Origin: Tetrahymena thermophila SB210
Taxonomy: Eukaryota; Ciliophora; Oligohymenophorea; Hymenostomatida; Tetrahymenidae
Assembly: GCF_000189635.1 (NCBI RefSeq)
Contig: NW_002476262.1
Coordinates: 186,001-250,000 of the forward strand
Length of the DNA stretch: 64,000 bases
Direction of reading: 5' to 3'
The notes under the pieces were generated by a model that worked only from the letters and a program-made list of their open reading frames with translations, was not told the DNA's origin and searched no databases. Both the position numbers and the translations under genes were made by a program. Positions 31,154-62,945 of the stretch are shown here, piece by piece (position 1 is the stretch's first letter; each line of letters begins with the position of its first letter).

Positions 31154-34100
31154 TCAATTCTTTATTAATTAATTTGCAGTTTATAAACGATCTTTATACA
31201 CTTCTAAAAGAAGTTTATAATCTATGATTCCATCTCTTTCTGCAAATTTTATAAATTATGAAACTATAGAATCCGCAATTTAAATTCCCTAGCTATTTAA
31301 AATTTTCATAATAAGCGATTTAGCCAGATCATATGTGATAGGAATATTTGCTTAATTATACGATTAAAATAAATCTAATAAATATTTTCTATTTTTTGCC
31401 AATACATTAAGAATTAAATCATGATCTTTAACATCTAATGATTATTTTATTTGTGTTGCTAACTTTTATTTATTCCTTTCGCTATTTTAAGTGATGTTTG
31501 ATGTAATTCTAAAAACTGAATTTTTTTCTAATGACTTATTCCTTTCTTGTAGTTCGTCATTTTACTTTCCTTTGAGTTAAATGATCGACTTTTATTGTAA
31601 AGCTTCATAATTTTAATCTGTTCTACCATGATGGTATTACTTAATATGATAAGTATTGCTCATAGAACGATACTTCTTCTATCTAGTCAAACCTTCACCA
31701 GTTCCTTATTATATATTATCCTCATTATTGACTCTTCCTAAATAGAATTAAGGGGTATTTAAATTGCTGAGAACATCATTCCATTCTGTAGAGTCAATAA
31801 AACCATCTTAGTTTCTATCAAGAAATCCAAACATATCTTTAATTACTGACAATCCTTCTTCAGGTTCTCCATTTAACGTTTAAAGCTTATTAATAAGAGC
31901 TTCAAACTCTTGGAGACTCATTTTGCCATCTCCTTTTTGATTAAACTTTGATAAAAAAATATATCATCTACATCATCCTTAATTTGTATTAATCTGATGT
32001 AATAAATATCTAAAAAATGATTCAACCAGCTAATAATTAATAATAATCTTAATTTAATTTTTTTAAAAATTTATCCAATCAAATTTCTTATTTCATAGCA
32101 TTTAATTTATGTTAAAATTTTGAAAATAATTGAAATAATAGTAGAGATTAGCTCGAAATAAATTACCTATCTAAATGCATCTACTGGGGATATCATATAC
32201 TTATAAATTTTGCTTGAAATTTACTTCAACTTAGTTTTGCATCTCTTAACTATTATATCATCTTCGTCACTTTTTTATAGCAGCTCAATAAATTTTTTAA
32301 TCTAAAGACGTCCATCTAAACCGCATAGATTGATTAAAAAGAATATTTCCTAACTTTTTAGTCCAAGATTTAACTCACTAAGAGCCTTTTTAAATTGATT
32401 GTTAGTTAAATATCCTGACTAAGCTATGTCGTTTTTATTGAGTATTTCTTCTAAGTCAATTTATGAAGATGACCTAATTATTCTTTTAAGTTTTTATATA
32501 AGGATTTCTCCTTGCTATTGAAGAAAACTTCCAGATTCACGAGTGTAAACGCTGGATAAATTTTGTTGCACACTGTTTGAGTTTTGCTATGTTATATTAC
32601 CAGTTAAATTACTTCTTGATAATGAATTGTAATAATCATTTAAATCCGATTTGTCCATAAAAAAGCTGGTATTCTTTATTCCTACCAATCTTGGCTATAA
32701 ATTCTATGAAATATTATTAGCCAAATCTTACTTTTTAAGATCTGACATGTTTCGTTTTATTGGTGAGACATATTTTGGACCTTATATTATTTACCTAAGA
32801 TTTTGTTCTTTTTATCTTGATTACCTCTTTGGAGATTAGCTAACTTTAGAGCCAGTCACTGTGCTATATATAAAATTTAATTTAAATTTTTTAAAAAATC
32901 TTTGGTTTTGATTTAATTTACATAGGTGTATATGATCTAAATCTAATACTATCAATTTTTGAGTCAAATATGTCTATATTTTTTGTAAGACTTTATTGAG
33001 ATTAGAATATTTAACTATTTTGGTTGTTTGTTTTACTTGTACTTTCACTACTTTAAATATTGTTATTAAAATTCTTAATTATAAATCCTAAAAATTTATT
33101 GAAATCCATTCCTAATTATGAAAATTAATTTATTTCTCTATCCCAAACTTAGCTAATTTCATCAAATGTGAATCTCTTTGGATACAAATAGTTAATACCC
33201 TTATAGAAACCAGATAGGTAAATCAATTTCTAATTATCTGGATTGTCATTACGGGTTAAAAAGAATTCAAAAGCTTCTTTTGCCTAAGACTTTTTACTAA
33301 AGTGGAGGTAGATCAAATTTCTAAGTTCTTCTACCATTTGCTTTTTCCAGTTTATGTGTCCTTTGTTTTAAAAATTGGGAAAATATATTTAGCAAACTTA
33401 AAATGATTTTTTTAATACCAAATTAGTTTATCCAATCCGATTCTGTAAGAAAGCCCTTCTTATGAGGATCAAAATAAGCAAAAAGTTCTTACAAAAGAGT
33501 GTTTGTCAAATCAAACCCTTGCAGGGAATTGCTCTTTTCTACCCATGATTAAAATTAATCAAATGTTATTTTCTTCTTGTATTAGCTTACATCTAATTAT
33601 TAAAAATAAATTTATTGGTGAAATAAATAAATAAATAAATAATGATGATTGAATGAATTATTTGTTTACTTTCAAAGTTAGCCTATATCGATGGATAGTG
33701 TTTTGATATGTAAAGACCTAACTATTGCGAAACAGATTTTTTCCAATCAACATTCAATATTTCAATTTATTATGAGTCACTTTATTTGCTTGAGGAAGAT
33801 GATATATTTCTTTAATTTTAAGTTGAATATGATCTTTTAATTGGTTGAATGTCTGACTTATTCAAAGATCTAGAATTTTAAATAGCTTACTATAATTCTT
33901 ATTGCTACTTTACAAACTTAATAAAGTCTATAATTCCTATTCTTCCAGATTTGTAAAAATCTATTATCTTAAATAGTCTATTCACTCTAGCAATTGTTAG
34001 TTCATTTTCTTTTATTTTTAAGACATCTCTTAGAAATTTTTTAAAATCTTGAACATCAACTTTTTTAAGTAAAATTAAGATTAGGTAAATTATTATTGTT

Positions 34101-37100
34101 AACAAATATTTACCAAATCCTTTGTATTCAAAGTCAATAACTCTAAATGCTTCCTCTTCTGATGTGAAATGTCCTTTTGAGTACCACTCAAATATTCTCT
34201 ACACCATTAAATTCTACCAATTCCAGTTATCTTCTGTCACTTGATCTTATGCATTTTCTTTGACACTCTTTTCAAGAACTTTTAAAAAGTTGCTAATATC
34301 TATCATTCCTATATGCAATTTATCCATATAAGCAAAAAAACCATCCTTAACAGGCTAAGAAAGCAAAATATACTGTATTAATTATAATTAAAAAACTTAC
34401 TTTAAAATATTGATAAAGGTTAATAAAATTACTTTATCTAAACCATCCATAAATTCACTGCAAGAAATCATACCATTTTTATCTGTATCTAGTAAATCAA
34501 ATAATTATTTGAATGTTATTTTTTTATCTCTAATATTTTTTCTGAGATCTCTCAAGATCAAGTTAATCATTTCTTCTGATAAAGGGTTTGTAGGGAAACA
34601 AGGAGGGCTGTTATTAATGAGCAATTATCTATCTTCATTTTATTTTAAACTAGAGTTAGTTGTAAACTAATAAGTGTAATTGTTAATAAAAGTAGAATTA
34701 GAGTGGTTATTGGTCTACTTTTCAATTTTCTTTTAATCATATTAAACAGCAGGAAGATAATCTATAGTTTGCATAGGATTTTATTTGATTTGACTTGGAA
34801 GTGCAAGGACTTACTCAATATATTTCCCATTTTTTATGTATTACTGTATATCATAGATATCAATAAAATCATCTCTGCTATAATCAATCTACTTTACAAA
34901 AGATTCTAAAAACTCTAAATTCTCATCTTTAAATATGTTATTTCCGAGATAAAAAGCAAACTTTTCAAATTAAAAAATATAATCTCTTTACTAAAATTAA
35001 AAGAAAAGAAAAAATTACTTTTTAATATGAAACTTTTAAATTATTTGAATTATCACCTTCTAATTTAACACTTTTGTGTACTGACTTTAAAAAATGTTCT
35101 GCAGACTCAAATTATTAATAATGATTTTTTAGCTTTTACATGAAATCACCTCTATCAAAAATTCTTTCTTTTGGAACTCTTGTTGCTTCTATTGTTGAAA
35201 TGGATTGTAAAAAGTTAAAATAATCTATTCTCTCATTAGAATCTTTTTTTAAGTATCTTATCATTCTGTTTACTTCAGATATACTAAGCTTTAGCTTACT
35301 TTTTATCATACAAATTTTAAAGCTTGCAACATCTAATAAGCCTTATTAATGCTCATCATATTACTATTATTTTATTAAGTACATTTTAATTTTTTTAAAT
35401 TCTCAAAAATATTTAGAAATACTATAAAAAGTTGCTTTAAATCTTCAAGCAATTCTTAATCAGTAAATTTTAGCTTCAACCTCCATAGCAAATTTTTAAA
35501 CCAAGAAGGATCGTGCTCTTTATCATCTTTATAATCATTAAATAACATTTAATCTATAATTATCAAATTTTTGATTTATTTACCTTCTTCAATAGATTGC
35601 AAATGTTAGACTAACTAATGAACTGATATCTAACTTTATCCTGTTATTGATAAGATAGTGTCTGCTATTTTTTCAGCTTTTGAATCATCAATTGTTAAGC
35701 AAATTTATTTCATGCTTTATATGAGGTCTTTTTTATTCAAAGGTGCAGAATCTCTACTTAATTTACAAGTTTTTAAGATATCATCTGTCCTAAGTCCTTT
35801 TTTAAAGATGACATCTCTTATGTAATCTAAATGCCTAACTTTTTATTTTTAATGAAATAATATTATGTTCTATTTTAATATAAAATGTACTTTAAGAGGG
35901 TAAATATTCTCCAAAAACTTTTTGCCAGTCTATATAGTCAATATAATTCTTTTACTTTTCATCTAAAAGTTTAAAAGCTTCCTATATCTAAAATAATAAA
36001 AACATTTTATAATAATTAACAAGTCAATAAAATAAATAAATCTTTTCTTAAATAAAATAAAAAAAATGAATCTTTTATTTAATAAAATAAAAATATTATA
36101 CCAATTCTGGTGTTAGTTTGATTTCATTTTATTAAATGCAGGTCTAAAAATTTTGAAAATCTAACTTTAAGAACTAAAAATTTTTAGATGAGGCAAAGCC
36201 CTTTTCACACAATTGTATAAAACCCTTTTAATTATATTTATGTTATTATGATATACAAATAACAAATTAAATACTCTTTCTGCATCTAAATGGTTTTATC
36301 TCATCCAGAATTATATGATTCTTTAACACATTGGCTTGTTTAAGTTATAGATTTCACTTTGAAAACTGAGTTAAGTTTTCATGGATTTATGAGATATTTC
36401 GGCTTAAGAAAGATTTTTTTTCTTGTTGCTTGGATCTCTTGCAAATTAGTTCTCGTTAATAAAAGATAGAGATTTTTATTATTGATTATGATTTCTTTGT
36501 TTTATAGGTGAAAATTGTTCTTCGATTTAAACTTATTTTTCTATTTTTTAATATAATTTTTATTTGACATTACTACAAATACTATTAAAATTCTACTTTA
36601 ATCATTAATTATGCCTTATAAATTTATTCCGAGATTATTCCTTAAGTAAGAATTAACTGATGAAGCAATATCAATCATAGATTTATTCTGCTCCAACTTT
36701 TCTGGCGACAAGCTAGAAAATTTATTTCTGTATTCTAACACACTCAAATTAGCAGCTGTTAATGTCATTTCTCCTTTTTCTTTTCTTTCATCAAGAGCAA
36801 GGTTAGTTGAATACTATTTTAATAAAATATGATTAGTTATAAATAAATGTTAAAAATAATATTCAACCTATGTACTAGCTATAAAGCTCTGATGAAAATT
36901 CACTCCACACATATTATTTCTAACAATTAAAAAGCCTATTCCAGGAATTTCCAAATCAGCTTATCCATTCTTTTTTTGTAAAAATAATATTTTTAAACTA
37001 ATTAGCAGGTAGTTATTATTTATAACATACACTATTTATTTTGGAAGCCAAAGTAGAAATCATCCTATTTACTCCAGCTTTGCATTTTATTGGGTCTACT

Positions 37101-38255: not shown

Positions 38256-38980
38256 ATGAATTAAACAGCAGAAAGCTAATTAGATTAAAAAATATGTATA
38301 GAAATTTTATAAGAGTCAGAGCAAAATTTCAAAAAAACTCATTCATTTGGTAAGAATAAATGTATTTTTATTGTAATCGTTAATCTTATTTTATATTTAA
38401 AGAAGAGAGATTCATAGAATACTAAATAATAAGATGCAATTATCCTGGATTTATACCAATAGCTTGCGAATTAGAGAATATAACAGATGTTGATGTATCG
38501 AAGTAAATTGAATATTTTTAAAATATAGCTTAAAATATATTAAAAATATTTAATAGGCATATCAATTTCAGGTTTTATGTATCTGATGATATCTTTGTTG
38601 GTAATATACACTAAATTATATTGTTTAATATAATTTTTCTCAAAAATTATCCTCCATTTAAAAAAAAAAATATTTAGGCCACCTTAAGAATTATTTGAAG
38701 GAGTTATTTTAAAAAAGAATAAAAACAATGAAGAAATCTCACCGCCTTCATTTACTGATTGAAGATGATGTCATAATTAAACGTAATTGCTTGTTTATTT
38801 TAAAAAAATAAATAACTAAATTAGATTTTTATATGAATAATATTTCAAGCTTTAAAAATTTAGTTTTGTATTAAATTTAATAAATAATAAATAATAGATG
38901 ATATTCCAATAAAGGAGGTTTATACTAAAAAAGTTGAACCTGATGGATGGCTTTATCTAAAACTATCAATCGATTATTGA
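38256..38980 (+). CDS. Divergent Atg8/LC3/GABARAP-like protein without terminal Gly
   Basis: Five exons (38256-38349, 38403-38502, 38557-38600, 38678-38782, 38898-38980) join in phase to 141 residues. The order follows Atg8: an N-terminal helical extension, FKKTHSFEERFIEYQ (Atg8 FKxxHPFExR), a short loop, YPGFIPIACE (YPDRIPVICE), FYVSDDIFVGHLKNYLKELF (the LVPxDLTVGQF strand-helix) and a closing DGWLYLKLSIDY (DGFLYVTYSGE). Core hydrophobic positions are kept. Atg8 proteins are ubiquitin-like modifiers conjugated to phosphatidylethanolamine on autophagosomes through a C-terminal Gly exposed by Atg4. Here the chain ends LSIDY with no Gly and no further exon is visible, so standard lipidation seems impossible. 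It may be a non-conjugated paralogue or a decoy; that is inference. Confidence 0.75.
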
Positions 38981-39236
38981 TAAATTGATGCTATTAATTA
39001 ATTAAATACTTTATTTTTATTATACTAAATACTAGATAAATACAAAAAACAAATATTTATTTTGAAAATTGAAATTCAAAATAGATAATATTTTATTAAG
39101 TTATTTTGATAAAATTGTTGTATTTTTATTTCTGAACTTAAGATAAATTTATTTATATAATATAAAAAATATTAAGAGAGATATAATTTTTTATTGATTG
39201 AATAGAGTTTTATTTATTAGAAGTTATTTTAAAAAT

Positions 39237-40625
39237 TCATACTGACTCTTCTTAGTCTTAGTAACTTTATTTATTAATATGTTTTTATTCAATGTTACGA
39301 GCCTCTTTTATAATCTATAAAATATCCATTTTTTCTATTTTTTATAAATTTGTCATCACAACTGCAAAGTCTTCGTCAAGTAATACAGATCTATTTATCT
39401 ACAATATAGCTAGCCCAACATAAAAAACATAAACTAAAATATTTTTCCTACTTAACAGTGTATCCCAAAGACGTATAACATCATTCAATTAAAACTCTTA
39501 AGTATAGAGCAGAAGTAACCACCTTAAACTATAGTACTAGGGGTCAATTTATAGCTTTTCAAAATGGAACCACAAGTCATTATCGTATGCCTTGAGATAG
39601 CTGTTGAATTCTTAGCATTATCTTTTTATACCTTACTAGCATTCATCCATTTACCTCATAAATCTATCTTTAAGGAGACCCATAACTTTAATGAAACAAA
39701 AAAAAGTATCAGCCTCTATTTATAAAAATCCTTCTTCTTGGAATAAAGGAAAAGCTCTTTCTTTTTAGAAGACGTAATAAATAGGAGCCAAAACTTCATT
39801 CATTCCTTAAACGTATTATATTCCTTGATTTAATTTTGCATAAATAAATAAAATACGACTTAATACATCACAATGTCTTTCTTCCTAGCTTATATTTTTC
39901 TTCTTCTTTTCTTAACGAATTTAAGTGATAAAAGGTATTTAGAGTCTCACTTCTCTTTATGTATGTGATGTAAAAAAGTGCATATCAGCACGAGTTCTTT
40001 CTGTATCTTTCTCTATTTATGTAAAAAGCTCAGAGTCTTAGAAAAAAGAATTCCAGTTACTCTTGCTGCATTTGCTTAAAGGATGATCAACTACTTTTTA
40101 AAATTTCATTTTATTTTAGCTGCTCCCTTAACTTAATCTATTTGGATGATTTATTATTGAATTTTTAGAGAATGGATCGCTTTCTTATTTTTTTATTGAT
40201 AAATGATTAGCTTCGCTTTAATTCGCATTATTTTCTTGCTTTTTTTTTAACTCTTCTTCTTCATGCTCATCAATAATTTTTTAAGGAGGCAACTTTTATT
40301 TTCTGAGAAAATCATCTAAAAATTAATTATAAAAAACTCTGCTATCTTATAGCTATTTTGTCCAAGTTGATCTATCTGGTTTAAAATATTCTAAAAGTAT
40401 CTTCCAGACTAAAGCCCTTAAGCCTATGCATTGATCTGAAATACCTAAATTAGCATATTCTCTTAATTTTACTACATCTACAATATCGTTATTCAAAACT
40501 TCTAAAATGTTTTATATATTTTAATATTCAGTTTAAGTAGTCTTAGCTTTCAGTTCGCTATTCAGCTAAGAATTCAAATATTCTAGCGAATAAAAATTAT
40601 TTGCTTATTCATGATTTAGCTACAT
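39237..40625 (-). CDS. TBC1D13: TBC1D13-like Rab GTPase-activating protein
   Basis: An intronless 462-residue frame (first in-frame ATG 40623-40625, TGA 39237-39239). It contains a full TBC domain: GISDQCIGLRALVWKILLEYF near the start, then DHPL, IEKDTERTRADMHFF (arginine finger in D-x-x-R), RILFIYAKLNQGIQYVQGMN (glutamine finger in YVQG), EADTFFCFIKVMGLL and LRWLLLLYTQEFQLNDVIRLWDTLL. The insertion pattern between the two fingers and the IYAKLNxGIxYVQGMNE string are those of TBC1D13. It should speed GTP hydrolysis on a Rab (Rab35 for the animal protein) in endosomal traffic. Both catalytic fingers are present. The frame extends open a little upstream of the ATG, so an extra 5' exon is possible. 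The C-terminal ~25 residues are a charged tail. Confidence 0.9.
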
Positions 40626-41793
40626 TGTATATTACAAATAATTTTGGATTATTTTCGCTAATTTTTGTATTCCTACTTAAGTTTTTTATTAATCTATCTT
40701 GTCCAAACAAATAAATTTTTTTCTTAATAAAAATAAGATTTAGAAGTCTTATTAAGTTTTATCTTAAAAAACTATCTTTCAACCTCTAAAAATCTTAAGA
40801 TGTAAATTACGGGTTTTTAATGAACACAAATTATAAATTATAAAAGAGTAAAACATAGATAAAATTGAAGGAAATTTCATCATCAGATTGCGATTTAAAA
40901 AAATATTCTAAAGAAATTTAAGAATTGCAAAATAGATTAATAAATAAATAAATAAAATAAAATTAAAGCCCGTCCAGTATGATATTTTCTATTGAAAATA
41001 TTTTTTCTATTTCTCAATTGTAATAAACAACTCTGACTCTGCATTAAATATATAAAAAATAGTCTCTTTTACTTTAGGAATAATCAATATTTATAAAAAA
41101 TAGATAGATAATTAAAAAAGAAATTTCTTTAGAATAGTGTTTGTTTGAACAATAAATTAAAAAGAAGTGTCTTTTTCTAAATTTAAAATATTCATATAGT
41201 AAATTATTATCTAAAATCTATTAATACTCAGTAAAAAATATTTTATAATTTAACTTTTTAAATAAATATTCTCACAATTTAATACATAATTTTTTAAAAT
41301 ATAAAAACTATTTTGATATTTGATGCAAGAAGAAACAACTTTTCATTAATAGGATTTTTTAATTTTTATAAGTTTATTTGTAATAGTTAAATGGATTTCA
41401 AAATATTGATTATTTTCTATCTCTATTAATTTTTTTAAGAAATTAATAAAATAAACATAAAAATGAATATATATTACTGTGAGTAATTTAGGTTAGTTAA
41501 TTACTAAATCAAGTATTTATAATATAAATTGAAAAAATTTATTAATTGATAAAAGAACAATAATAATATTTAATAATTAGCAATAGGCTATCAAAATAGA
41601 TTAAAAAACATATCTTATTAACTTAACAGCGATATTAGAGGTATATTTTATATCTAAATCTAAACATTAAAAAGAATTATATTCTTTATTAGTTAATTAA
41701 ATATTATATATATTTATTATAATTATTAGGCAAACCAAATAAATTTATTAAGTTTATCAATTAACAACTGAATAATAAGTGTTAGTGTTAAAT
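40626..41793. other. Intergenic spacer between divergent genes
   Basis: About 1.2 kb of A+T-rich DNA between divergent genes, with no coding potential that I trust. Confidence 0.6.
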
Positions 41794-43309
<1,516 letters not shown>

Positions 43310-46138: not shown

Positions 46139-47508
46139 AATAAGTTCTAGTAGATACTTCATTTATTAGTTTAATAATAATTTTCAATACTTTATCTAAC
46201 TAAACAATTTCTAATCAATAAGTGTCTCAGTAATTCATCCTATAAATTATAATAAAAAGTAAAAAACAATTATTTTGAGTTTATCTATTTTACTAAAAGT
46301 CCAAGTTAATAAGTTATTTATTATCAAAATTATAATATTTAAATAAATTGTTAAATATATTATTCATATTTTATTTTAATCTTTCTAGTTTTAAATCCTA
46401 ATTTTAATTTCAAAATCAGTTCCACTTTCCAAATAAAAAGAAGTACATAAAAGATTAATTTATTTCTATAGTCTTTAATTGTGTTCCACGATTGTAAGAG
46501 AGAGTAAAATTTCTATAAATTAATTATCTTTAATGAATATAATAATTTTGTATAAAAAATATTTTATTTTGACCCTCACTAAATCTAAAATTTATTGAGA
46601 GAAATTAGTTTTTTATTTAAAAACTATAAACCCTCTTCAAAATAATTTCCATCGCATTTATCTTACTGTAATTCATATGTTAAATTTATTATTTTTTTTT
46701 ATCAACTTTATTAAATTAATTTTATTTCAAGTGTTTTTTATCAATATTTACTGATTTATAAACAAAAATGAATAAAAAACAATTTAAATATTAATCAAAA
46801 TTAAAAAGTAATAAATATTTTACTAATTTTTTATGAAAAAACTATTTAAGCTAATTATGTATTTTTATTGGTCAAATTTTTTATAGGCCTTATATTTAAA
46901 TTCTCGTTTATTTTTTAAATACTCTAATTAAAATATTTATTTTTGTCAAGTTCTTCATTCATTAATTACTACACTAATTTATTCAATATTTCTTTTTGAT
47001 ACCTACATAATTTGATTATAAATTAATGGTTTAAAATTTATTATTGGTTAAGGCATTATTTGGAGTTTAAATGAGGATAATTGTTATAAAAATTAACTTT
47101 TGAAAAAGTGTAATTATTCTTTTTTAATAATCAAACATGCAATTTAAAAAATCAGTTTTTTCATTTCTGCTTTTTAAGTAGAGTATTATTTTGACCAAAT
47201 AAGTATGAAATTGATGAAATTTCTGTCTTTCAATTTTTCTTGAGAGAAATCCTAAAAGATTAACATTAAATTCAAATGTATGTTATTTAAACAAATTAAT
47301 ATATAAAATTTTTGATTAAAGTAAATTAAGTGTAAAAGTTAATAATAAATTGAAACAAGTAAAAATTACACTAAGAAAGAAATTAAAAATTTGTACAAAA
47401 AAATAAAGTTTATATTACCTCTCTCTCCTTTCATTTACTAAATTTTTTAAAATTTAAATCATTTTATTTCATAAAAACTACCAAAAATTCCATAAAAACG
47501 CTTTAGCA
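46139..47508. other. Intergenic spacer
   Basis: 1.4 kb of A+T-rich DNA between the kinase pair and the hydrolase pair. Nothing recognisable. Confidence 0.6.
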
Positions 47509-48923
47509 ATGAATTATGAAATTACTAAAAGAATATTTAACCTTATGAAAAGTAGAAGGACTAATAGTCATAAGCATCAAACTGAATAGCCTTCGTAGAT
47601 GAGCTAGTCAATCACTAAAAGATAAAATAATAAAATAGAGTTAAAATATGTTAAGAATGAAGTAAATGAATCCAGAGTAAAAAAGCTAAAACTTTTAGAT
47701 GAACATATCTATAAACCTACTCCTTACATGTCTAATTGTTTTCTATAAAGCCTATTTAATATAGCTTTTAGTGATAATCTTTGTATTAACTATAAAAGAG
47801 AGCTTGTTAAGCTGCAGGATGGGGGATAAATATCTCTAGATTGGGCTCTACCTATTAATTTAAAAACAGCACAAGAATATAATCCTAGTGACGACACAAA
47901 AATTTTATTTGTAGTTCATGGCTTGACAGGTGGCTCTAATATGAACTACATAAAAGAAATGATTTAATAAGGCTAAGCTAGTGGCTATAGGTATGTATTT
48001 ACTTAGAAATAATTTATATAACAATAATTTATGAAATAGATGTGTTGCTTTTAATTCAAGAGGTATTAATACTTAGTTGACAACTCCTGTTCCTTTCAAT
48101 GGCGAGTGTCTAGATGATCTTAGTTATGCCCTGAATCTTATAAAGAAAAGATATCCTAAAGCTCCTCTGTTTGCCGTTGGAGCAAGTTTTGGCTCTAATA
48201 TGCTCCTTCGCTTGGTAGGAAATATGAAAGAAAGGAATTTTTTAGATGGAATTGTAGGTTTATCTACTCCTTTTAATGTTATTCAGTGTATTGAAAAGCT
48301 TGGTAGAGTTTATGAAGAGTTTTTTGTTTACAGGTAAAATTAATATTATTAATGATCAAAATAAATATTTGATTTTGTAATTTAAAATTGTGGCTTATAA
48401 TTGTATATATAAATAGGTATAAGGCAAACTGTATAGATCCTCATTTAAAAATTTTGAAATCTTTAGAGAAAACTCATAACATAGACTTTAAAAAAATAGC
48501 TAAAGTTAGAAGTTTAAGAGAATATCATGAGCAACTTTCAATTAAATTATTTAATTATTCTTCAGTTGATGAATATTTTGAAAAATCAATGGTCAAATCT
48601 GAATAATTACTGAATATCAAGTGTCCATCCCTCTTACTTCACTCAAAAGATGATCCTATTGTTACATATGAATGCATTCCTTAAGATATTTTAAGAAAGA
48701 ACCCTTTTATAATCTAAGCAGATACAGAAAATGGAGCTCATAATTGTTGGTTCACAGGAATAAAACCAGAAAGGGTATATTTAAATTAAATTAAAATTCA
48801 ATTTTTTGAACATTTTTTTAATAATTTTAGTGGTATCCTAAACCTGTTATTTAGTTTTTTGAAGTACTTTTAGAAGAAAATTAACAAGAGACATCATTTG
48901 GTATGGAAGAAAAATGCGATTGA
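47509..48923 (+). CDS. ABHD1/3-type alpha/beta hydrolase (copy 1)
   Basis: Four exons (47509-47990, 48040-48333, 48417-48774, 48831-48923) give 408 residues. The fold shows the YheT/EMB8/ABHD1-ABHD3 pattern: LQDGGQISLDWALP, oxyanion loop VVHGLTGGSNMNYI, VAFNSRGINTQLTTPVPFNG, nucleophile elbow FAVGASFGSNMLLRLVGN (Ser in G-x-S-x-G), catalytic Asp in LLHSKDDPIVTYE, and His in ENGAHNCWF. The triad is complete. Animal ABHD3 cleaves medium-chain and oxidised phospholipids; here the substrate is unknown. The N-terminal ~90 residues are basic and polar, with no clear membrane anchor. Intron positions are identical to those of the next gene, marking a tandem duplication. Confidence 0.9.
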
Positions 48924-49343
48924 AACTTGTTCACCAAACATATTATTAATTAAAAAATTTATTTACAAATTAAAGCTAGTTATACTATATAATATATTTT
49001 TTATAATAATCTTATAAAATTTAGTCGAAATTTTAGTTTTAAATTCTAAAAATTAATTACTGTGCATTCTTTTAAATTACCACCCATCACTATTACAAAT
49101 TTTTTGTTATAATTAGGATTTTTTTTAGAATTTTAAAAAATTTTTAAAAATAATGTGGCTTTGTATTTAAATAATTTACAATTTGACTAAATGTTTTTAA
49201 TTCAATAAATTCATTAAAAATTGTAGCCCACCACTTATTTTTGAATAGTACAAAAAATATATTTGATTATTATTTATTTTTGTGTATAAAAGTAGGATTT
49301 AAAATATTTATTAAAATACATAAAGAATCTAAGTTTAAATAAA
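48924..49343. other. Spacer between tandem hydrolase genes
   Basis: About 420 bases of A+T-rich DNA; it should contain the 3' end of copy 1 and the promoter of copy 2, but no motif is visible. Confidence 0.6.
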
Positions 49344-50873
49344 ATGAATCATCATTTTGCGAAAAAATGGATACAAAATTTGAAAAATAAAGTAATTCAT
49401 CATGTAAAACCAAGTTTAGGACTTCATCATTTTAGAAAATAAGAGTCGTTGAAAATCAAACCAAAAAATTATAAAATTGAATTAAAGTATGTGGAAAATG
49501 AAATTAATTAATAAAGAGTAAGTAAATTAACTCTATTGACTGAAAATAAGTATAGTCCATCTCCTATGATGGCTCATTCTTTCATGTAGAGCTTGTATAA
49601 CATTAGGTATAGCAGAACTTTAAAAGTTAATTATTCTCGTGAATTAATCAAATTAGAAGATGGAGGGTAGTTTTCTTTAGACTGGGCTCTTCCTATTAAT
49701 TCTATAACAGATGAGGAATATGAGCCTTCTCCTGAAACAAAAATTTTATTTGTCATACATGGTCTTACTGGTGGTTCAAATATGAATTATATTAAAGCTA
49801 TGATTTAACACGCTTAATAAAATGGCTATAGGTAAAAATTGTTTATAGTTTCTTAAAAGTATAAATTTATTTTCAACAATTTCAAAAAATTTTATTTAAA
49901 TTTTATAGGTGCGTAGCTTTTAATTCAAGAGGTATAAATACAGAGTTAAGCACTCCCGTTCCTTTTAACGGTGAATGTTTAAAAGATTTAAACTTAGCCC
50001 TTAATACAGTAAAATAAAGATACCCTAACGCTCCTATTTTTGCAGTGGGAGCAAGTTATGGGTCTAATATGCTTCTAAGATGGGCTGGGAATATGAAAGA
50101 AAATAATTTCTTAACTGCAATGGCTGGCCTTGCTACTCCATATAGTATAGTATAATGTGTTGATAAAATGGGCTATGTTTATGAAGGCTTTTTTGTCGAT
50201 AGGTATATATTTGAATATTCTACTTTTTATGATAGTTTGAAGAAATAATATGCTTTTTTTCTAGAAAGTGCCTTTGTTATATTACATTAAATTTAATAAA
50301 TTTCCAATAAAATTAAAATATAAAAGGTACAAAGCTAATTGCATAGATCCACATAAAGATATACTTAAGTAACTTAAAGAATCACATAATATATGCTTAA
50401 AACGATTAGCCAAAACTAAAAAATTAAGAGAATTTCATGAAGAAATAACTATTAAATTGTTTGGTTATAAATCAGTAGAGGAGTATTTTAACTCATCTAA
50501 TGTTTAACCTGAGTAAATTAAAAATATTAGCCGCCCTTGCTTGTTGATGCATTCAAAGGATGATCCAATTGTTACATATGATTGTGTTCCATCTGATGTT
50601 TTAATATAAAATCCTTAAATAATTTAAGCTGAAACTACTCATGGTGCTCACGTATGCTGGTACACTGGAAAAACTCCTTAAAGGGTAAACAAAAAATATC
50701 TTTGATTTATTGTTCTTTTAAATTATTTTATTTAATTTAATTTTGTTAATAATATATTTTCGTAATAAATAAAGTGGTATCCCAAGCCAGTTCTATAATT
50801 CTTTGAGACAGTATTAGAAGAGGAGTAAATTAAAAAATAATAATTAGTGTAAAAAAATAATTAATAATTATGA
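49344..50873 (+). CDS. ABHD1/3-type alpha/beta hydrolase (copy 2)
   Basis: Four exons (49344-49831, 49909-50202, 50327-50684, 50775-50873) give 412 residues. It is closely related to the upstream gene: the two middle exons have exactly the same lengths (294 and 358 bases) and phases. Triad motifs are FVIHGLTGGSNMNYI, FAVGASYGSNMLLRWAGN (Ser nucleophile), LMHSKDDPIVTYD (Asp) and THGAHVCWY (His). The N-terminus differs and is His/Lys-rich (MNHHFAKKW). The last exon ends in a Gln/Asn-rich tail absent from copy 1. Synonymous and amino-acid changes are spread throughout, so the duplication is not recent, yet all catalytic positions are preserved, suggesting both copies are functional. Confidence 0.9.
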
Positions 50874-60692: not shown

Positions 60693-61169
60693 AATAAATA
60701 TCTTAACTTCTACTTACCAAATCTTCAATATTTATCTTAATTAATTAAATTAATAATTTCAAATTTAATATACAAGATAGATTTGCTCACTTATAAAAAT
60801 TTAATTTTTAATGCAAATTAACTAAAAATTAGCTTGGCTAACAATTTTTAATAAAGACAAATATTTTAGCAAGATATTATATTTTAAAAATACAAAATGA
60901 TAAGAAAATATGTGAATCATTTGTATCTATCATTAAGATAAATAATATTAGGCTCTTCTAACCTAGTTATATCCATAAGTAATTTCATAAAATTAATTAT
61001 ATAAATAGTTATTAAAATAATATTTTTTATAAAATTTAAATTAATTATTTAAACAATGCCTATTTATTGTTCATTTCTCATTAATTATAAATTAAAATTT
61101 TCAAAATTTCCAAGCAAAAACAATTTATATAAGTGAAAAAAATTTAATTAAAATATAAAAAATGATAGT
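60693..61169. other. Intergenic spacer before tRNA cluster
   Basis: About 480 bases of A+T-rich DNA upstream of the exonuclease gene and downstream of the first tRNA-His; nothing recognisable. Confidence 0.6.
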
Positions 61170-61241
61170 GTGGATAGTGGGTTTCGATCCCACGACCTTA
61201 AGAGCCACAATCTTACGCTCTTCCAACTGAGCTATATCCAC
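61170..61241 (-). tRNA. tRNA-His(GTG): tRNA-His (GTG), copy 1
   Basis: A 72-nt cloverleaf on the minus strand. The acceptor stem GTGGATA/TATCCAC, D stem GCTC/GAGC, anticodon stem TAAGA/TCTTA and T stem GTGGG/CCCAC all pair fully. The anticodon loop TTGTGGC gives GTG, reading His codons CAC and CAT. The discriminator is A73, no CCA is encoded and G-1 is not encoded. The RNA polymerase III stop is a T-run just after the gene. The T-loop is ATCGAAA, not the usual TTCGAAA. Confidence 0.95.
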
Positions 61242-61405
61242 TTTATGAAATTTATTAATAAAACTAAGTGACATTTTACTATAATTTCTTTTTTAAATTT
61301 ATTACTTAAAATTAAAGTTTGATAAAAAAACTAATAAAATTAAATAATAATTTTTAAATCATTAATCAAATTGACAAACTAAAAAAGTATTCTTATTCAA
61401 AAAGT

Positions 61406-61477
61406 GTGGATAGTGGGTTTCGATCCCACGACCTTAAGAGCCACAATCTTACGCTCTTCCAACTGAGCTATATCCAC
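61406..61477 (-). tRNA. tRNA-His(GTG): tRNA-His (GTG), copy 2
   Basis: Identical over all 72 bases to copy 1, followed on its strand by ACTTTTTG, a polymerase III terminator. Flanks share no similarity with copy 1 beyond a few bases, so only the gene itself is conserved. Confidence 0.95.
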
Positions 61478-61628
61478 TTTATGATATTTTTTATTTTTAA
61501 TTAAAAAAATTTTGTTTAATTTGATTAAATAAAAATTTATTTTAAAAATATTGTATTTAATGGTTCAATATGTATTCAATTATTTAGATAGACTATCTGT
61601 TTTCTTTTTAAAAAGTTGGTTAAAAAGT

Positions 61629-61700
61629 GTGGATAGTGGGTTTCGATCCCACGACCTTAAGAGCCACAATCTTACGCTCTTCCAACTGAGCTATATCCAC
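61629..61700 (-). tRNA. tRNA-His(GTG): tRNA-His (GTG), copy 3
   Basis: Identical to copies 1 and 2 in sequence and fold, with A73 and a five-T terminator immediately downstream on the minus strand. Confidence 0.95.
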
Positions 61701-61879
61701 GCCACGAAATTTATAATTTTGAATATGAGACATTTTGTTATTATTATAATTAAAAAATTTTTATTAATTGAAAACAAATTGTGTATGTAAAATCTTCTAC
61801 ATAATAAACTTTTAAATCATAAAAAATATTTAAAAATGTAATTACAGTCATCTAATTTGTGATAGGTATAGTAAAAAGT

Positions 61880-61951
61880 GTGGATGGTGGGTTTCGATCC
61901 CACGACCTTAAGAGCCACAATCTTACGCTCTTCCAACTGAGCTACATCCAC
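61880..61951 (-). tRNA. tRNA-His(GTG): tRNA-His (GTG), copy 4, acceptor variant
   Basis: Same as copies 1-3 except that the last acceptor pair is G-C (GTGGATG/CATCCAC) in place of A-T. Both sides of the pair changed, so the stem is kept; this compensatory change argues for a functional gene. A73 and a five-T terminator follow. Confidence 0.95.
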
Positions 61952-62535
61952 TTTATGAAAATAAAACTTTATCAAAAGCTCTTGCATTTTTTTATTTAAA
62001 TATAATTTATTGAAAAAATTAGAATAATTTATTAGAAATTAAAGTAGAAGTAAGTATTTATTTCTTTGAAAATAAAAAAATATTTTTCAACTTAAATCTT
62101 TAAAATTTATTATCTATATCTAAATTAAAATTCAGTTTTAATATGTAAATAATTCAAATCAAAATCATAGAAAATTCTGACTAATAAAAAATCACAAATT
62201 ATTTTAAGTATTAAATATCTAAAATATTCAAATAATAATTTAATATTGTTTGTTTTGTTACCAAAATTTTATTTTAAATAGACTATTACTTTCATAAATT
62301 GATTTTAAATAATTATTTTATATATTGAGTTACATAAATTTAAATTAAAACTTATATTTTAAAAAACTTCAAATAAATTTTTAAAGAAATTTAATTTTTA
62401 TATTTTAATTTATATGGTTTAACTCATTTAATTTATTAAAACACCTTTTAAAATTTAAGAAAAACATTTTAACATAAATTTAAATTAAATTTAAAGAATA
62501 AAAATAATTTTTAATTTATTTTATTGTTTCAGGTC
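61952..62535. other. Spacer within tRNA cluster
   Basis: About 580 bases of A+T-rich DNA separating four tRNA genes from the last two; no further tRNA or fragment seen. Confidence 0.6.
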
Positions 62536-62607
62536 GTGGATGTAGCTCAGTTGGAAGAGCGTAAGATTGTGGCTCTTAAGGTCGTGGGATCGAAACCCAC
62601 CATCCAC
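62536..62607 (+). tRNA. tRNA-His(GTG): tRNA-His (GTG), copy 5, opposite strand
   Basis: The only plus-strand member. It carries the GTGGATG/CATCCAC acceptor variant of copy 4, the same GTG anticodon, A73, and a TTTTTT terminator at once downstream. It faces copy 6 across a 45-base gap, so the two genes form a large inverted repeat. Confidence 0.95.
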
Positions 62608-62652
62608 ATTTTTTATAATTTCTATTATAAACTATTAAAACAAAATAAAAAT

Positions 62653-62724
62653 GTGGATAGTGGGTTTCGATCCCACGACCTTAAGAGCCACAATCTTACG
62701 CTCTTCCAACTGAGCTATATCCAC
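62653..62724 (-). tRNA. tRNA-His(GTG): tRNA-His (GTG), copy 6
   Basis: Minus-strand copy with the GTGGATA/TATCCAC acceptor of copies 1-3, anticodon GTG, A73 and a TTTTT terminator downstream. Convergent with copy 5. Confidence 0.95.
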
Positions 62725-62945
62725 ATCACAGGAGTGATTTTATTTCATACTTTGATGAAAAATTTTATTTTAACTTTTTCATAGAAAATTTACATTATTC
62801 AATATTCTGTTATTATGTTTTTTTCATAATTAATAAATCAATTAAAAAATAAAAATAAGAAAAAAAAAAATTAAAGGAAATTAAATCACCTTTGGTGAGG
62901 CATAATTTTGAGATGAATTTTTTTTTTTTAAACAAAGTATAGTAA

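Follow-up and report, generated by a model that had tools for sequence, protein, structure and literature searches.

A diverged Atg8 paralogue lacking the conjugation glycine, most likely the orthologue of Tetrahymena thermophila TtATG8F

Processing of Atg8 proteins by Atg4 and their lipidation through Atg7 and Atg3 need a C-terminal glycine, which is either exposed from the outset or made so by Atg4. ATG8 homologues that lack this glycine reportedly occur in more than ten species, a finding said to come from Zhang and colleagues in 2022. The closest described system is Tetrahymena thermophila, for which PMC12153319 describes five ATG8 homologues, TtATG8A to TtATG8D and TtATG8F, and cites Zhang et al. 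2022 (Autophagy 18:2969) as the source of this count. In that account, TtATG8A and TtATG8B have an Atg4 site and the glycine, TtATG8C has an exposed glycine, TtATG8D has a transmembrane domain, and TtATG8F (TTHERM_00500940) is without a C-terminal glycine. EGFP-TtATG8F is reported to be present in the cytoplasm and nucleus during both growth and starvation and to form no granules, and the TetraFGD data quoted there give no starvation induction of TtATG8F (PMC12153319). A separate account counts three glycine-bearing Atg8 genes in Tetrahymena (PMC5244887). PMC7615515 reports functions of Atg8 that do not depend on lipidation, in yeast (Hfl1) as well as in Drosophila, and describes nuclear roles as emerging. 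Ciliates of the Tetrahymena type combine Atg8s that have glycine plus tail, an exposed glycine or a membrane-type tail with others that have no anchor at all, and a glycine-less Atg8 is a natural handle on the question of which Atg8 roles require membrane attachment. Because such a protein is already published for T. thermophila (TtATG8F; PMC12153319), the novelty of the gene analyzed here is low; what we add is the gene structure and the docking-site changes of a glycine-less Atg8 from a genome that is probably that of a relative.

We analyzed a window of 64,000 nucleotides, that is, the whole stretch of DNA under study (GC from 0.167 to 0.305 in 2-kb steps), using for translation the ciliate code in which TAA and TAG specify glutamine and TGA is the stop. 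Five exons spanning positions 38256-38980 on the plus strand join into a frame for a 141-amino-acid protein with the C-terminal sequence DGWLYLKLSIDY followed by TGA. This five-exon frame is present at the coordinates proposed by the first-pass annotation, and all four of its introns run from GT to AG. Exon 1 (38256-38349) starts with the first in-frame ATG downstream of an in-frame TGA and encodes an N-terminal arm that, at about 23 residues, is longer in the alignment than those of two Atg8 paralogues of the same genome (C114 and C117, named by working contig labels), and then FKKTHSF. Exon 2 (38403-38502; EERFIEYQIIRCNYPGFIPIACE...) aligns to the N-terminal part of Atg8, and exon 3 (38557-38600; HINFRFYVSDDIFV) to the strand bordering the LIR docking site in LC3B. 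Exon 4 (38678-38782) carries a four-residue insertion relative to the other aligned Atg8s, and exon 5 (38898-38980) ends in ...DIPIKEVYTKKVEPDGWLYLKLSIDY and the TGA at 38978-38980, with the conjugation glycine absent. The introns, likewise on the plus strand, comprise intron 1 (38350-38402; 53 nt, phase 1, 15.1% GC), intron 2 (38503-38556; 54 nt, phase 2, 9.3% GC), intron 3 (38601-38677; 77 nt, phase 1) and intron 4 (38783-38897; 115 nt, phase 1). Overall, GC is 12.4% in introns versus 27.5% in exons (Fisher p = 8.2e-7), and GC at codon positions 1, 2 and 3 of the coding sequence (37.6, 21.3 and 23.4%) follows a coding-type pattern. When the coding sequence was base-shuffled, 1010 of 20,000 versions (5%) were without an in-frame TGA, so the openness of the frame alone is weak evidence. 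The length of intron 2 is a multiple of three, and by eye the intron holds no in-frame TGA; its retention would add 18 residues and leave the protein end unchanged.

Judged by sequence comparison, the similarity of this protein to Atg8 exceeds chance. The Pfam ATG8 profile (PF02991) matched residues 34-138 with an E-value of 6.3e-8 and 33.2 bits against a cut-off of 27, and the best chain in a PDB search was 3h9d (E 6.3e-9). At E <= 10 this search matched 114 distinct sequences; among the best 60 of them, 58 are named Atg8, LC3, GABARAP/GATE-16 or fusions thereof, and two (9j5g and 9f2m) carry the name 'Autophagy-related protein' only. An hhalign comparison with a profile of the four other Atg8s found in the same genome gave 94.8% and an E-value of 4.8e-8. 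The Atg8-like identity first suggested for the frame is thus backed by Pfam, PDB and paralogue comparisons. The protein shares few residues with the other Atg8s: 26 to 30 positions are identical in alignments of 115 to 133 columns, in which it carries one four-residue and one two-residue insertion.

The protein ends in LSIDY. Its match to the ATG8 profile reaches position 98 of 104, with three residues (IDY) beyond it, and the glycine of the exposed-glycine paralogue on C392 falls at profile position 104; about three more residues would thus be needed to reach the conjugation glycine. Translation and the end of the profile match together confirm what the first-pass annotation had read at this terminus, a stop at IDY with no glycine. 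Its remark that no GT donor is visible near the end held as well. The only GT dinucleotides in exon 5, at 38918 and 38933, lie upstream of DGWLY, which begins at 38942; a search for a GT donor from 38934 to 39099 found none, and the following GT is at 39100. Read-through of the TGA would add 42 residues up to the next TGA, none of them glycine. A hidden glycine-bearing exon is therefore very unlikely on the sequence at hand, and this candidate was rejected. Given the known mechanism, a protein without the conjugation glycine can neither be processed by Atg4 nor be lipidated through Atg7 and Atg3 at the usual site.

The first-pass annotation had also proposed looking for glycine-bearing Atg8 genes in the same genome. 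Our search of 101.0 Mb in 445 contigs found three of these (C114, C117 and C392) among four further Atg8 genes, the fourth being on C443. The resulting total of five is a lower bound: exons were searched one at a time, and with Pfam three genes were caught while the one at 38256-38980 was missed. The C114 protein ends in FGSI and the C117 protein, as modelled, in FGKNI, each a glycine followed by a short tail, and the C392 protein ends exactly in FG, leaving the glycine exposed. At C443:126396-126734, an intron-free Atg8 domain runs into a hydrophobic stretch that by eye is transmembrane-like. The nine bases GTAAGAATA at the intron 1 donor of the glycine-less gene recur in the last codons of the C117 gene; the KNI tail may therefore belong to an intron, which leaves the end of C117 uncertain. 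Two weak matches, at C310:222661 (E 0.36) and C10:187932 (E 0.73), gave no Atg8-like frame when all six frames were inspected by eye for stretches of at least 40 amino acids, and are not counted among the five.

The genes on C114, C117 and C392 have two introns each, which share two alignment columns and are in phase 2 and phase 1. Introns 1 and 3 of the glycine-less gene are without counterparts in these three genes. Its intron 2 has the phase of their first intron and lies 5 alignment columns upstream of it, and its intron 4 has the phase of their second intron and lies 1 column upstream. When four introns were placed at random, 420 of 200,000 placements matched the agreement of introns 2 and 4 as well, under tolerances that were chosen after the offsets had been seen. 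The phases and near positions of these two introns are compatible with an origin of the genes from one ancestral Atg8 gene, allowing for slight displacement in loops or in the alignment, but do not prove it.

Sorted by type, the set found in this genome comprises two genes with glycine plus tail, one with an exposed glycine, one transmembrane-like and one glycine-less, and equals the published T. thermophila set. Like TtATG8F in its published description, the gene at 38256-38980 encodes an Atg8 homologue without the glycine, stands beside glycine-bearing paralogues and belongs to a five-gene set of the same types. On the basis of this matching by type, orthology with TtATG8F is the most likely relationship. 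On C443, about 25 kb separate an Atg4-type domain from the transmembrane-like Atg8, and the T. thermophila genes of these types are given as TTHERM_00526270 and TTHERM_00526360 (PMC5244887, PMC12153319), so that the linkage agrees for ATG8D. The TtATG8D-type gene on C443 is likewise without a conjugation glycine at the usual place, but it has a hydrophobic tail and an intron-free Atg8 domain, whereas the glycine-less gene has four introns and its product ends in IDY. Elsewhere in the genome, matches to the Atg4-type peptidase (PF03416) occur in neighbouring pairs at C255:145089-148631 and C17:914847-919093, a layout that suggests tandem Atg4 copies.

We then compared the 13 LIR docking positions (HP1 and HP2) given in PMC7615515, with LC3B as the reference. 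The correspondences are D19E, I23I, P32P, I34A, K51R, L53Y and F108W in HP1, and F52F, V54V, P55S, L63L, I66Y and I67L in HP2. Five of the 13 positions are thus identical, four are conservative (D19E, K51R, F108W and I67L) and four are clearly changed (I34A, L53Y, P55S and I66Y). Moreover, K49, R10 and R11 of LC3B are not conserved in the glycine-less protein, F80 corresponds to H104, and L82 is kept as leucine. With four of the 13 positions changed, the groove may accept different motifs or be filled in part; as K49, R10 and R11 are not conserved either, it may be closed. The glycine-less protein resembles canonical Atg8, LC3 and GABARAP proteins in its above-cut-off Pfam ATG8 match and in the nine docking positions that are identical or conservative relative to LC3B, but differs from them in having neither the conjugation glycine nor an Atg4 site and in its four- and two-residue insertions.

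Together, these results favor a diverged paralogue of Atg8 that is most likely orthologous to TtATG8F and probably acts as a soluble binder of partner proteins in the cytoplasm and nucleus; we assign this reading a probability of about 0.72. Without the glycine there would be no Atg4 processing and no Atg7/Atg3 lipidation at the usual site, and the protein would probably stay soluble, both cytoplasmic and nuclear. Partners would be bound through the partly kept, altered LIR-docking groove, and partner binding would thereby be uncoupled from membrane marking. Such a soluble partner-binding role appears to be the simplest reading, and the non-lipidated Atg8 paralogue that the first-pass annotation had considered emerges as the best account of the gene, in view of the Atg8 homology, the glycine absent by sequence and the glycine-bearing paralogues in the genome.

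We considered whether the gene could be a duplicate in decay, transcribed yet functionless, which we regard as unlikely. The sequence is highly diverged, the functional glycine is lost, 5% of shuffled frames are also open, and TtATG8F, relevant here if orthologous, is without starvation induction in the data quoted in PMC12153319. However, the frame is joined through four GT-AG introns, all five exons contain sequence that can be aligned to Atg8, the GC at codon positions is of the coding type, and a glycine-less member is on record in T. thermophila (PMC12153319), so that, if the two are orthologous, the gene has outlasted the separation of the species. An intact frame with its splice sites argues against a pseudogene, and this candidate was set aside. 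It is barely credible that the model is instead too short and that alternative splicing or read-through supplies a glycine-bearing tail: the published TtATG8F is also described as lacking the glycine (PMC12153319), and although our model was derived from the sequence itself, 38934-39099 is free of GT and the read-through is glycine-free up to the next TGA.

ATG12 binds ATG5, and the glycine-less protein could be the 'missing' ATG12 of Tetrahymena, a non-covalent ATG5 binder like that of Apicomplexa which supports the lipidation of the other Atg8s; this we consider improbable. Among the ciliates studied in PMC5244887, ATG12 is listed for Oxytricha only, Tetrahymena is credited with an ATG10-like protein, and absence of ATG5 is noted for Ichthyophthirius only. 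The genome analyzed here contains matches to Atg4-type, ATG5_UblB and Atg3/Atg10-type domains, with a single ATG5_UblB match (5.5e-14; the control match was below the cut-off in 1 of 14 genomes), and Pfam APG12 found no match over the genome. This last result is weak evidence that ATG12 is absent, as the control was also without a match and introns fragment matches. Apicomplexa have a known non-covalent ATG12 without the glycine (PMC11764061, PMC10104450), and the glycine-less protein itself matches ATG5_UblB below the threshold (E 0.0099). It resembles the apicomplexan protein in being an autophagy ubiquitin-like protein with a lost glycine; the latter, however, is described as binding ATG5 (PMC11764061, PMC10104450), whereas the 38256-38980 protein is without an APG12 profile match (none at E <= 1, against 33.2 bits for ATG8). 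The glycine-bearing paralogues on C114, C117 and C392 do match APG12 above its cut-off, but the transmembrane-like paralogue on C443 does not, so divergence alone may explain the absence and the test is not a strong one. The intron phases, moreover, resemble those of Atg8 genes. An identity as ATG12 was set aside on the missing APG12 match, with the reservation that C443 has none either. A related scenario, in which a glycine-less Atg8 paralogue took over the place of ATG12 and binds ATG5 non-covalently in a lineage that has ATG5 and lacks a recognisable ATG12, strikes us as highly improbable. The soluble Atg8 paralogue of the TtATG8F type remains our preferred reading.

Several other features of the window were also recorded. 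Downstream of the Atg8-like gene and convergent with it lies a RabGAP-TBC frame (39237-40778, minus strand), beyond which a protein kinase is encoded in two frames (41533-43309, plus strand). On the other side, two minus-strand stretches at 31154-31963 and 33506-35260 are similar to PDB CCDC81B (8v3l), with E-values of 1.5e-30 and 1.8e-35; a stretch of CCDC81B has its best genomic match on C135, so the frames in the window look like a paralogue. This stretch of the T. thermophila protein is matched at 96% and 84% in two pieces, and the genome is therefore probably that of another species. Two plus-strand stretches, 47218-48117 and 49245-50096, have very similar sequences (..VHGLTGGSNMNYIK..), which suggests a pair of tandem genes that by eye look like the alpha/beta-hydrolase type, and the intervening frame at 48373-49266 gave no Pfam match at 0.001. 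Finally, ARAGORN placed six tRNA-His (GTG) genes within 1.6 kb at 61168-62725, five of them on the minus strand and the sixth on the plus strand.
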